A DNA stretch of 64,000 nt from Paracamarosporium sp. OC-R06-R3 (lineage: Eukaryota; Ascomycota; Dothideomycetes; Pleosporales; Didymosphaeriaceae). The stretch spans positions 50,465 through 114,464 of the forward strand of contig JACVRA010000110.1 in assembly GCA_019828545.1 (NCBI GenBank), read 5' to 3'. Positions within the stretch are counted from its first letter, which is position 1; the number at the start of each line of letters is the position of its first letter. Position numbers and translations under genes: made by a program. The notes beneath the pieces were generated by a model. The model had not been told where the DNA came from, searched no databases, and was given only the letters and a program-made list of their open reading frames with translations. This document shows positions 1 through 9,544 of the stretch, piece after piece.

Positions 1-3000
1 CCGGTGAGGGTCGTGAAACTATATATAGTACCGTCTGTGCAAGCACCAATTATATCGTCATTAAGGACGCCAGCGGCGATGGGAGAAAAGTTATCAGGAC
101 TATAGAAGCGGCGCCAAGGCGGGCGAATATCACCCTGTTGAATACGAATTACTGAGCGCGGAAGGCAAGCTTCGAACATGGTGGTGGCGGCGCTTTTATT
201 GGATGTGTGGAGCGGGTGAAGGAGGCCAACCAACGAGGCATTTTTATCGGTCAGGAGAACGATTGTGTTCGAGCGCTTGGCGGCGGGGCTATTTTCCACC
301 ATAGGCCGTTTGTATATTAGATGGCGTAGAGAGGAGCGCTGCCGAGAGTCACTGAAAACTTGGGTGACCTTGAAGGTCGTCTCGTTTTGTGGCTCTGGAA
401 GCTTGGTGACTTGAAAGCAAAGGTGGGAATCGTGACTGGTGGAGACGTAGATGAAGTTTTCAGAAACAGTCATATGGACTCCAGGGGAAGGCAGTTGTAT
501 CTGCCCACGTGGCTTCCATCTGTACTTGTTAGTCACCATTCGCAGGAGATGGAGGTGTATTACCTAGCTTCCTCGGTGCGTTCTATCTGCTCTAATTGCA
601 ACGTACTTCCAATGATGCTGATAATGTGTTGGTTGTCGAAAACGGCTATGCACCGTACAGGTTTATCGAATCGTTTTTTGTCCTGCAATTTGAGGCCAGA
701 TTTTGTGATGTTTAGCACAAGTCTACGTCCTGTTTCTTTTTCTGCAGACTCCATTATCCCAGTACCCACTACGACAAGCGCATGCTGACGATCTTCGTCA
801 CCTAAAAATACCCACCTGACCATTGAATGTACTCGTTCGTAATGCTTCAATGGTATTTCGGTCTTTTCGAGCTTCTTCTTTGGTGTGCTAGGTGTACGTT
901 CCTCTTTGATCTCGGCGTCCGCATCTGACCCATCATCCAGCAGGTCTATAATCTTGATGCTAGAAAGCATGGTCCTGTACTCATGGGAAGGCGTTTGTTC
1001 TTCTCTGAGCTCGTTCGTAACCGCAATCATGTGATGTGGCAAGTCGTCTGCCACCATAAGCTTTGTGGGCGTATGCCTAGTAGACAATTTCCGTGGGACG
1101 ATCTTGCCGTCTTCTGGTAACAAGGATGGCGCAACTTGGCCCGACCATTTGATATCATAGTCCAAGCGAGTGTAAACCATCCTGTCTCCAAACACTGCAA
1201 AGATAAAGCCACCAAGATTTTGTCTCTCTTCACCAGTAACCGCCGTCAGTGGAACTTGATCCATGGCATTGAGAGCTCCTTGCAAGTATGTTGGACGTTG
1301 AGGATCGTCGAGCCATATAGAGTCGATCTGTACCCCAAAACTACGGTTTGATAGGTAAACTCGACAGAAGTCTGCACCACAAGCTGCGAAGGCCATAGAA
1401 CAATCGGTTTTATTTGGAGTGATGTACACAGGGGTAGACCCCATCCTTGTAACCGATATGGTGTTTAGTTGGTGCGCTATAGGAAGTAAGTATAGTGTCT
1501 CGACGTGGAACAGCACACTTACGCTCAAATGTAAAGGCTCCACGGCCAATTTCTGGGAGATCTATGCAGATCAATAAGCCAGTTCTGGTACCACAAACCA
1601 ACTTCTCGTGTCCTCGGTTTGCCAGCAGAGCCGCACTCTCGTACACATGCTGTAGCCTTGGGGTTCCCACTGGGGCCACGTTGGTCTGGTAGACTGGTAC
1701 CAGTGAATTCTGTTCATTGATCGCAAATAAGGAAAACCCAACATTTGTAATTCCTACAAAGATAAGGGGACCGCTGTCGGAAACCAGTATATCAATACAT
1801 GTAGGATCATCTTGGAGCGGGCTTCGTCTTGTTTCATCGTATGGCATCTTGAATTGTTGGTCGTCCGAGACTGGTATGGCTATAAGGACAGGTTTTGTTC
1901 CTTCATACAATGCGACCACAATAAAGGGTACACCGGGCTTCGTAGCCGCTCCCAGTAAAGGACTGGAGAAAGCGATTGAGCCAACTTCATTCAATAGTGG
2001 ACGTCGAATAACCCTAGCTTCGTGATACGTAATCTGAACAGCGAGGTTTGCACTAATCGAACAAGCCGATATGGTTTCCGCATTACGTATGAGATCATCC
2101 TGGACTGGCTGAATGTTCTCCCATTCCCCACCGTCCCAGGCGCTTCTCAAGCTACTTTGGCTGTACGACCCTTCTTTTTGTGTTCGGGATGCTCGCAGAA
2201 CTAGGGTCTCAGGAGGAGCGTTAACGACAAAAGTGGCGTAATCTTGTCGCCTTAAGGTATCATCTTTATCCAAGGTAGTGCTGTCATCTTTATCCAAGAT
2301 AGTGCTGCCATAATCAACGACCCACAACCCAGTAGACCCCTTCAAGCCTCCGTAACTATTGTCGACAAGAGCTCTTAGCCCTCGTCTAAGCTGCGAAAAT
2401 TCTCCGTAAGGAGCTTTGCCGTTGGATACAAATATATTAGCTCGATTTCGATCGTACGGCAGTGGCATATTTCCAAGCCGTGTCACAGCCATGTCGGTGA
2501 GTGGTGCCCAGTTTGGTAGTGACTCTACAAAACCGAAAACGTTGGTTTCCGAATACGGTGCCTTGTCCGCATACTCCTTTGGCCACGCACCCACTTTGCA
2601 TAAGTGCCCATCGCTTCCGAAGCCCCCAGCCACAAGAACATCAGGATAAGATTGCGCAAATTCAGAACTGTCAGCTTTCAGACACGCGAATGCAGTGTCA
2701 ATCGGATACGGCCAGCTGCCAGCGTCGGAGATTTCAAGTGCATTGGCAACATCCCCAAGCTCGACGTAGATAATGACACCATCCTCTCGCGCCAAATAGA
2801 AGGCCTCCTTAGCGAAGTTAGGATTGCGAGGCGCCCGATCCCATTGTACCCATAGAGGTTGACCTCTATTGCTACCGGGTCTTAGCGCATCTAGGAAACG
2901 ACCGGGTATGGGAGTTTTCAGAGTGGCTGGGGGTCCGGCCAGTACCCCTTTGCATACGGATATATGCTTGTTCTGGACGAGCAAAAAGTCGGTGCTGCGG

Positions 3001-6667: not shown

Positions 6668-7487
6668 TCATCGACCGAATGGAGGGTGCCTTATATGTTC
6701 GCACCAGTCGCAGTACCTTAAGCACTGAACAAGCATAGTGAACACCTGGTCTGCAGTTGCGGTGATGTATCAAAAGACTTACCAAGCTTTGACACATGCG
6801 CCTGTTGCATTCATCGAGCGGGTTTTTCTGCTGGCATGTCAACCCAAGAAGCTCATGGGAACAGGTGCAATCGCACGAACCTCCAAGCAGCCTTGGTGTC
6901 CTTGGACGCAACCTCTAGGACAGTAAGCAAAGAGACCGCTGCCCAGCGCGTCCTTTGACGCTGGCTTCTCCTCTTCAGAGTCATCTCCTACGCTATCACG
7001 ACGGACGGTGTTGGAAGGATCTACGGTAAGAGGGATTCTGCCGCATTGCGCGTCGCATTGTGCGCACTGCTTAACGTCAGAATCGTGGGAATTGTAAAGA
7101 CGACCAGTAGGGAAGACTTACTTCGCGATCTTGGCACCTGGTCTCCTGGCAATGATCCATTCCGTAGAGGCCCTTCAAAATCAGCTCGTCTGCTACCACT
7201 TTTTCTTGTCCTGGGCTTCCCAAATACCTCGTTGATGCACTGCGAGTAAATGCGTCTGCACTTGTTTGGACAGACTCGAATGCCGAACTCGCTTTCTTCG
7301 GCCATACTCTTAGTTGAGGCCGCAAGAGCATGAATATCTGATGGAGATCAATGATAGAATCGTCGATTCGTTATCAAGTATATTATTTGCGCTTTAGCGG
7401 CAAAAGCTACGTACCTTTGGGCAATACGACGACGGCGAAGCCGACAGTGGCAAGCGCAGCAAACGAGAAAAGATTAGACAGCTTCAT
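6668..7487 (-). CDS. Small secreted cysteine-rich protein with two 8-cysteine modules
   Basis: Proposed exons: 7487-7415, 7337-7228, 7172-7122, 7069-6881, 6830-6783 and 6724-6668 (175 residues). The introns are 77, 55, 52, 50 and 58 nt. Exon 1 encodes a signal peptide beginning MKLSNLFSFAALATVGFAVV. Module A has cysteines at residues 47, 51, 58, 69, 74, 80, 83 and 87; module B at 128, 132, 139, 149, 154, 158, 162 and 165. Both follow C-x3-C-x6-C-x9/10-C-x4-C-x3..5-C-x2/3-C-x2/3-C. An RR at 101-102 lies between them and fits a Kex2-type cleavage. Introns fall at matching points in both modules: after the third cysteine plus two or three residues, and just before the sixth cysteine. The acceptor of intron 2 is the least certain (7173 or 7185). 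The family is not known to me; a secreted effector or antimicrobial role is only a guess. It is divergent from a similarly built gene. Confidence 0.68.
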
Positions 7488-8134
7488 CTCAGAGACTTGG
7501 ATTGGATATTGTCGTGTATGTACAACCAATTCGGGAGAAGCGAACAAAGAATATTGAATGAAAACACTGGTGAGGAAAAGACGAGGGAGCTACGCGTGCA
7601 AGCGCAATTTAAGAAATCACAACGCGATTACCCTCCCACCAAAGCCTCTCACGCGTCACACCCCTAGAAGCCACGATGGGTGTACATGGATGGTTAGAAT
7701 TCGTTAGAAATCACAGCATAACGCTGGCAGTGAAACCTCTACGGTCAGTCGAGTGGTGTGATCGATATGCACCTGTTTCTAGAATCACTATGTCTTCAAC
7801 ACTGACCGTTCAACACTGACCGTTCAACACTGACCGTTCAACACTGACCGTTCAACACTGACCGTTCAACACTGACCACTCTTACCATCAGAGGTAACAC
7901 GAGTCAATAACTCAATGTTCTGTTTGCTTCTCCGGAACCGCCAAGCAAGTTTCCCGTCGCCTTCACTCGCCTGGCCGGCTCTAACCTCTTCCCGATAACA
8001 TCTGCTTAGCAGGGCAACGCGACTCTTAGCACCAACTCTACGACTAGAACCCGTTCCACTACTCCTCTCACATTCTGTATACTCTTGAGATACTATCAAA
8101 CCTGTTCTTTCTAGTGCTCTGGCTCATGGTCAAT
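7488..8134. promoter_or_regulatory. Shared divergent promoter of the two cysteine-rich genes
   Basis: About 650 bp separate the two start codons of the head-to-head pair. The stretch contains the 14-bp minisatellite at 7797-7880, and a partial inverted copy of its unit core near 7741-7750. No other coding potential is convincing. Co-regulation of the pair is an inference from this arrangement. Confidence 0.55.
7797..7880 (+). repeat. 14-bp minisatellite, six tandem copies
   Basis: The unit CAACACTGACCGTT is repeated five times without a mismatch at 7797-7866. A sixth copy at 7867-7880 differs at two positions (ending CACT). The array sits about 255 bp upstream of the plus-strand cysteine-rich gene and about 310 bp upstream of the minus-strand one. 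Confidence 0.97.
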
Positions 8135-9169
8135 ATGAAGCTCTTCCAGCTTGCGTTGGCTCTGGCTGTGGCCGCCCTCACGGCAGCTACTCCTTTGACA
8201 AAGGACAACACTATTACTGCTGTGATTGATAACCCCGCCCGCAATGAGTTCCTGGTTCGTCGTAAGGACATCGCTCAATGCGGACCCTCGGGCGCCTGCT
8301 ACAGTTTCATCAAATACTGCACTCGTGAGTAACCTTTCATTGCCTTCTTGCTTGCGATGCGTTCTCAGCGAATCAAGTTGTTACTGGCGAGATATTTGGT
8401 AGCTGCCCTGCACGATCGTGTACGCTGGGAGCATTCAAGCGTCCAATGCGTACGCTACGTGCCTTCCGAAGTCGCCTTCGTGCATAGCCATTTACAGTAT
8501 AGAGTCAGAATCCTACATAGAATTATCTGTTACATTGCTCGTCCTAGGATATTGCAGTGGATCCTGACTGCATGACATGGCACTATATAATGCGTACAGG
8601 GTCATGGCAGGGGAGCACGCATGTATCCACAGTTTTGCTCTTCACTAACGATATTTAACTCAGATATTGATTGTAAGAACCCTTTCACATGGGAATGTGA
8701 CAACTGGTGCCACGAGCGACTTTGTTCCATTGGCCCTGAGGTTTGTCGCAAGGGTGGTGAGTGTGCATATGAGTATCACTGTGACGGCAGCACTGTTGTG
8801 CGCGGCGGTCACACCAAAGCACCCACCACAGGCTTTTCCTCACCAAGCCACGGAACTACTACCGACGGCAATCCACGCAAAGAACAAGCATCTCGCACAC
8901 ACCACCAGGAAGGACTCAATTACGGCAACGAGGCACTAGACCGAACTGAAACGAAGCTCAGGAAGCGCAATGATCTTGAGTTAGACAAGGCTGCCGAATG
9001 CACTGCATGTGACGACTTCATGAAAAACTGCAAGAGAACCTTGTGCCCTCGCCCGTGGGCTCCAGAGTGCCAGTGGGACTGCCAGGCTCGCTTGTGCAAG
9101 GACGGCCCTCCTGAATGTCGCAAAGGCGGTGCGTGCGGTGTGTATGCTCGCTGTGGAAGGTTGGATTGA
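8135..9169 (+). CDS. Secreted protein with two 10-cysteine modules separated by dibasic sites
   Basis: Exons 8135-8324 and 8664-9169 give 231 residues. The 339-nt intron (GTGAGT...CTCAG) is long for this genome. The start at 8135 gives a clean signal peptide (MKLFQLALALAVAALTAATP); an in-frame ATG at 8126 is possible. Module 1 has cysteines at 49, 55, 62, 67, 75, 79, 84, 91, 97 and 103. Module 2 has them at 176, 179, 186, 191, 199, 203, 208, 215, 221 and 227. After the first loop every spacing is identical: x6, x4, x7, x3, x4, x6, x5, x5. RRK (42-44) and RKR (163-165) precede the two modules, as expected for Kex2 maturation into two disulfide-rich peptides. The linker is Ser/Thr/His-rich. The splice junction is supported because it restores the x4 spacing seen in intronless module 2. 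Family and function are unknown to me. Confidence 0.8.
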
Positions 9170-9544
9170 TGCGTTCTGCAATGGAGCTCTCCCAAGCGGT
9201 CCTTCGTGCGAGGTCGATTGACGCTCGTAATTGGGAGTCAAAATTGTGCTTCATCAGGTTAGGTGGCACCTTACACTAATAAAGCTATCCGTCAAGCTAA
9301 AAGTCATGCGATACCGGTTCGTCTCCGCGATGGACAAAACTAAAGGAAACAAATCCACAAATATTGGTGAAGATGCTTTGATTTATCGAATTAAGTGACC
9401 CGTGGCTCCATCATGAAGTGACCGGTGCCTTCCTTATTCATTCCTGCCCTAAAACGCCACATATTCCATGCCATCATAACTCATAACGCCTGCCTAGGCC
9501 TGAAAACAAAACCCACTCCTCCAGCTATTATCCTTCTCATAGTA
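9170..9544. other. Convergent intergenic region
   Basis: About 375 bp lie between the stops of two converging genes. They are likely 3' UTRs; an AATAAAG-like stretch near 9278 could be a polyadenylation signal for the plus-strand gene. Nothing else was seen. Confidence 0.45.

Follow-up and report, generated by a model that had tools for sequence, protein, structure and literature searches.

The window, by which we mean the whole 64,000-nucleotide stretch analysed, carries on its plus strand a two-exon gene whose predicted product is a probably secreted protein built of two cysteine-rich modules. From the ATG at 8135, exon 1 (8135–8324) and exon 2 (8664–9169) are joined across a 339-bp intron (8325–8663) with a GTGAGT donor, an AACTCAG acceptor and a branch-like CTAAC at 8645, 15 bases upstream of the acceptor, to give a spliced product of 231 amino acids. 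The genome search found a single copy of the intron sequence. Many further open splices are listed for the locus, and the one chosen has both a consensus donor and a consensus acceptor. This predicted gene model is supported by the relatives described below, because P0001 and P0003, whose gene calls appear to be unspliced, resemble the window protein from the first residues of exon 2 onward and not before, and because P0004 tracks exon 1 as far as the donor. The coordinates, splicing and residue numbering of the preliminary description were all confirmed. Exon 1 encodes a signal-peptide-like N-terminus, a short pro-segment and cysteines 1–3 of module 1; secretion is judged probable from the hydropathy plot, in which the N-terminus is hydrophobic over approximately residues 1–20 and the peak falls at residues 1–19.

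The genes around this locus appear to be ordinary cellular genes. Eight long open frames nearby were scanned, and seven match Pfam families (RSE1/DDB1/CPSF1-like, TBC, PARG, RhoGAP-LIM, GNAT, MutL and phospholipase D), the eighth having no match; G+C in 2-kb steps across the window ranges from 0.465 to 0.620. Head-to-head with the gene, on the minus strand at about 6839–7487 (ATG at 7487), lies a gene that also seems to encode, in several exons, a small and secreted cysteine-rich protein, with a MKLSNLFSF start followed by CPNKC, HCQETRC and CAQCDAQC, and then by NTVRRDS and FAYCPRGC; it is possibly repeated too, and its linker contains an RR site. A perfect 14-bp tandem repeat, TTCAACACTGACCG, in 5.9 copies, occupies 7795–7877 in the interval that separates this divergent pair.

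Module 1 is divided by the intron into an exon 1 portion (C49–C62, 8279–8324) and an exon 2 portion (C67–C103, 8664–8782), and is followed by a cysteine-free, hydrophilic linker (8783–8956); module 2 (C176–C227) occupies 8999–9154. The ten cysteines of module 1 are at residues 49, 55, 62, 67, 75, 79, 84, 91, 97 and 103, and those of module 2 at 176, 179, 186, 191, 199, 203, 208, 215, 221 and 227. The first loop is 5 residues long in module 1 and 2 in module 2, and the remaining eight loops are common to both (6, 4, 7, 3, 4, 6, 5, 5), an arrangement for which 5040 distinct orders are possible; the matching spacing described earlier is thus confirmed in both positions and loop lengths. Outside the cysteines, 12 of 40 positions are identical, compared with a mean of 2.07 in shuffled sequences, and 12 or more were reached in none of 100,000 shuffles. 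BLASTP of one module against the other, as a single comparison, gives 22/50 identities with an E value of 8e-13, and while the RKGG singled out earlier is indeed shared, the sharing extends beyond it. The two modules are, by their sequences, homologous and not merely alike in spacing, which bears out the proposed internal duplication under disulfide constraint.

Three points were absent from the preliminary description: a family of relatives, a divergent module type with eight cysteines, and a relict module at 9159–9218. Seven relatives (P0001–P0007) were found, five by whole-protein search and two more with a profile of two-module pieces. Five relatives come from Didymosphaeria variabile, Kalmusia sp. 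IMI 367209, Paraphaeosphaeria minitans, P. sporulosa and Karstenula rhodostoma, whose genera belong to the Didymosphaeriaceae, Pleosporales (P. sporulosa being placed by genus). Counted by eye, the relatives carry from about one module (P0004) to four (P0002, and P0001 with a partial first one). Modules of the 10-Cys type are 49–55 residues long, those of the window 52–55. The 8-Cys type, which ends in CC, is found at the C-terminal end, where it occurs twice in P0002, once each in P0003, P0005 and P0006, and cut short in P0007; cysteines 2–8, seven in all, are common to both types. Across 19 aligned modules, a set that omits the incomplete module of P0004, the cut-short third module of P0007 and, from P0001 and P0003, the first modules, which are partial, six cysteine columns are invariant and a seventh nearly so. 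The family may be described by these core cysteines and an [LIVAPF]xxR site ahead of each module, and the window protein, one of the sequences from which that description was drawn, has the core cysteines and such a site ahead of both modules. Pfam and NCBIfam returned no family for the six proteins scanned, P0006 and P0007 not being among them (E up to 5 per library), a search of the PDB sequences with the profile of 19 modules gave no hit (E up to 10), and own-genome searches with four proteins gave no match besides the window locus. What emerges is a module family without a name, so far seen in one fungal family, with a copy number that varies between related genera.

Two observations on the relatives may be added. 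The public gene model of the Kalmusia protein P0004 seems mis-spliced, since exon 1 runs into RLC and the stretch that starts exon 2 in other members is skipped. Furthermore, a similar stretch (YYKEAL, YYKKGF, HYEEAL, YYEEVL) ending in RRD or SRD recurs ahead of the middle module type, before the first module of P0005, P0006 and P0007 and in the linkers of P0002 and P0003, and is present even where the first module is missing.

A tree was built from 21 modules, with the incomplete module of P0004 and the cut-short third module of P0007 left out. Module 1 of the window groups with the corresponding first modules of three relatives, P0001, P0002 and P0003 (support 88/95, the P0002 row being a long branch), module 2 has its closest neighbour in P0002, whose second module is 83% identical to it over 52 columns, and the CC-type modules form a group of five with support 100/100. 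Because the branch that sets the module 1 side apart is weakly supported (71/96), and P0001's second module joins that side, also weakly, a duplication older than the genera is likely rather than proven. Past the stop codon of the window gene, another frame of the same strand reads GWIDAFCNGALPSGPSCEVD and then a stop, and this sequence shares 11/18 identities with a CC-type module of P0002. The stretch scores 64; elsewhere in the window, 1246 overlapping 300-base pieces, counted on both strands, were scored, and the highest reached 42. The relict, of the 8-Cys type, spans 9159–9218, overlapping the stop and extending past it, and lies outside the predicted protein. An out-of-frame third module behind the stop suggests that the two-module form probably arose by loss, and most likely the window gene is a former three-module gene of which the third module was mostly removed by a deletion and a change of frame.

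With respect to processing, the dibasic sites RRK (residues 42–44) and RKR (163–165) are present as claimed, and Kex2 release of two peptides is supported as a prediction, but the signal that recurs through the family is LxxR, dibasic pairs between modules occurring at about the chance level. In the extended Kex2 motif, as summarised in the accessible portion of PMC8528282, Leu or another aliphatic residue occupies P4 and Arg occupies P1, and the preferred P2 residues are Lys, followed by Arg, Thr, Pro, Glu and Ile. Two window sites fit this motif fully, with the preferred residues Arg and Lys at P2: LVRR (residues 40–43, 8252–8263), 5 residues ahead of module 1, and LRKR (residues 162–165, 8957–8968), 10 residues ahead of module 2 and followed by an acidic spacer of net charge –3. 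Among 21 pre-module segments, LxxR is found in 15 (3.6 expected from shuffles) and the wider [LIVAPF]xxR in 20 (12.3 expected), values reached in none of 5000 shuffles, and KR or RR in nine (5.4 expected, p 0.043); these statistics overstate the evidence, because shared descent of the proteins makes the segments non-independent. The wider class admits Phe at P4, in addition to the L, I, V, A and P listed in that portion of PMC8528282, and the segment count omits the N-terminal segments of P0001 and P0003, in which exon 1 is absent, and the region after the sole module of P0004. The wider-class site lies 5–19 residues ahead of the first cysteine in the 20 segments that have one; the single exception is the segment ahead of P0001's second module, which lacks sites of both classes. 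For the 15 inter-module linkers taken separately, LxxR occurs in nine (1.9 expected) and the wider class in 14, and KR or RR occurs in four (2.7 expected, p 0.27), which is no commoner than chance. The six 8-Cys modules are preceded by LxxR in two cases and by PxxR in four. At many of the relatives' LxxR sites, P2 is occupied by Ala, Val or Ser (LSAR, LQAR, LLVR, LRVR, LVSR), outside the preferred set.

A further KR pair (187–188) lies within module 2 with Asn at P4, and P0001 and P0003 have KR at a like place. Blanket cutting at dibasic pairs would damage the module, so cleavage must be selective. The recurrence of LxxR (PxxR before most 8-Cys modules) without dibasic pairs makes the family a natural test of the proposed extended Kex2 motif, and 11 of the 15 inter-module linkers would escape a scan limited to KR or RR. 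As judged from similarity, the genome encodes a kexin: the one protein with a proprotein-convertase P domain found there (L011, G000:C306:171843-172103; E 1.9e-28) has Kexin as its best PDB match (E 2.4e-163), spanning both the catalytic domain and the P domain. By eye, a hydrophobic stretch is seen near its C-terminus.

AlphaFold2 was run with 8 and 7 sequences, the window protein being modelled from exon 2; module 1 of the window could not be folded whole. The overall quality is poor, with a mean pLDDT of 59 for window exon 2 and 52 for P0006. The front of window module 2 alone scores well (block pLDDT 84–89 over model residues 111–150, then 71 and 53), and has predicted helices at 113–126 and 133–146, that is, a helix pair in the first three quarters of the module. 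P0006 has a predicted helix pair in each of its three modules at block pLDDT 55–82. These weak models agree with, without proving, one fold for both module types, and Foldseek matched no solved structure to them. The window modules differ in net charge, –2 for module 1 and +3 for module 2. All 12 scored modules that are classed as middle type, the window's included, have net charges of +2 to +5, and the five whole 8-Cys CC-type modules have –2 to –6. First-type modules of the relatives carry –4 in P0002, –2 in P0001 and +1 in P0003, the latter two modules being partial. P0001's second module, at +5, is classed as middle type by its place, and the first type becomes mixed if it is counted there on its weak tree position.

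These observations are best accommodated, with a probability of about one half, by a secreted modular precursor that is cut by kexin to yield disulfide-laced peptides. Following signal-peptide removal, kexin in the secretory pathway would cut after R43 (LVRR) and R165 (LRKR), dropping the short pro-segment and freeing two peptides, the one comprising residues 44–165 (module 1 with its hydrophilic tail) and the other residues 166–231 (module 2). Each module would be oxidised to a compact helix pair of 52–55 residues, laced by disulfides, in which the cysteine scaffold is held fixed and the surface has diverged, so that one copy is anionic (net –2) and one cationic (net +3). Such peptides would most likely be stable extracellular interaction peptides aimed at a neighbour, either plant tissue or a microbe, and may serve as plant-directed effectors, antimicrobials or wall proteins. 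The sequence itself establishes the gene, the duplication, the family, the recurrence of LxxR, the kexin gene and the relict module, while secretion, cleavage, disulfides, fold and an extracellular role are inferred from it.

A possible, if somewhat less probable, arrangement is a protein that stays uncut between its modules, as beads on a string of the Cin1 type, in which the modules, still joined, would engage several partners or attach to the hyphal wall, and the LxxR sites are unused or serve only to remove the N-terminal pro-segment. The repeats of Cin1, described in the excerpted text of PMC4617103 as 52–64 residues long with a helix-loop-helix core and flexible linkers, are comparable to the modules of 49–55 residues here, the window linker is long and hydrophilic, and the P2 residue at many of the relatives' sites is not a preferred one. 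Against this stand the recurrence of LxxR also between modules, in 9 of 15 linkers where 1.9 are expected, and the preferred P2 residues (Arg, Lys) at both window sites. If the precursor is cut as we favour, a cationic antimicrobial module may be kept masked by an anionic module and acidic spacers until cleavage. The net charges of the middle-type (12/12) and whole 8-Cys (5/5) modules fit this antimicrobial form of the kexin-cut precursor, as does the origin of one relative, Paraphaeosphaeria minitans being a mycoparasite; we nevertheless consider it rather unlikely, with no sequence match to a known family or solved structure in the Pfam and PDB searches, and with a first type that is not always anionic (P0003 partial, +1; P0001 second module, +5, which groups there weakly). 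More speculative still is a reading in which charge-opposed folded peptides, with cationic middle and anionic first or C-terminal modules, are made as one chain and parted by kexin at LxxR, the anionic partner chaperoning or neutralising the cationic one up to its release, or forming an extracellular heterodimer with it. The family would then be a serial pro-domain effector, one domain acting as the pro-piece of another.

That the relict third module marks a step in the loss of the gene, and that the remaining protein is without a selected function, is improbable. The out-of-frame relict past the stop would suit such decay, as would the loss of cysteines from a module in P0005 and in P0007 and the cut-short third module of the latter. 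However, the window gene retains an uninterrupted frame, every one of its 20 cysteines and the site ahead of each module, and module 2 has kept 83% identity to its P0002 counterpart. We give next to no weight to chance similarity or a wrong gene model: other open splices do exist at the locus, but the observed module identity was reached in none of the 100,000 shuffles, and the modules and the start point of exon 2 are common to the relatives.

Among known systems, Cin1 of Venturia inaequalis, also a member of the Dothideomycetes, is a secreted, cysteine-rich candidate effector with eight helical repeats, and its two-repeat structure is 2LHT (PMC4617103, in part); it is Venturia-specific, with Cin1-like proteins of one repeat (PMC4617103 and PMC9632046, both in part). 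As for Cin1, the repeats here are cysteine-rich, of similar length (52–64 and 49–55 residues), variable in copy number and restricted to a lineage, and their core is weakly predicted to be helical. Predicted Kex2 sites lie between the modules here, a feature not mentioned for Cin1 in the available portions of the two papers, and the module profile is without a PDB match at E up to 10, on the assumption that the PDB copy includes 2LHT; a distant kinship beyond the reach of sequence comparison is possible. With regard to the three-helix bundle of Cin1, what is predicted here are helix pairs at poor overall confidence, for which Foldseek gave no match.

In Kex2-processed pro-domain (K2PP) effectors such as SnTox3, ToxA and SIX1, a Kex2 site (KR, RR or LxxR) closes an N-terminal pro-segment and the mature domain follows, according to the accessible part of PMC8528282. 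The class is defined by such a site in the first half of the protein after a disordered segment, by a secreted form that lacks the pro-domain, and by the action of a plant pathogen's effector on a host. The window protein resembles them in having LVRR at residues 40–43 of 231, in the first half of the chain, after a short and mildly hydrophilic segment, and differs in that the site recurs ahead of several homologous modules and in having no PDB sequence match. Rsp3 of Ustilago maydis likewise is secreted, contains repeats and a cysteine-rich region, is processed at its N-terminus and is polymorphic in length, but its repeats are not its cysteine-rich part, and it is predicted to be unprocessed between repeats (PMC5923269, in part). 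The Kex2-processed repeat proteins (KEPs), including Rep1, Hum3 and Rsp1 of U. maydis, share with the window protein a single precursor with repeats separated by Kex2 sites (portions of PMC4617103 and PMC6339444), and Rep1 yields ten peptides of 35–53 residues and one of 228 (PMC4617103, in part). The window protein has instead two diverged 10-Cys modules, and its family linkers feature LxxR in 9/15 cases and KR or RR in 4/15. Where the KEP definition calls for at least four fragments, cutting at KR or RR gives four, one cut falling inside module 2; where the pipeline calls for at least three similar fragments from cuts at KR, RR or KK (PMC6339444, in part), the window protein offers its two modules. 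Because it falls below the KEP repeat count and has no detectable sequence kinship to Cin1, we file it as a serial, folded-module form of Kex2-processed secreted protein, which by analogy appears nearest to Cin1 in build, and nearest in maturation to the Kex2 pro-domain effectors and to repeat precursors such as Rep1.
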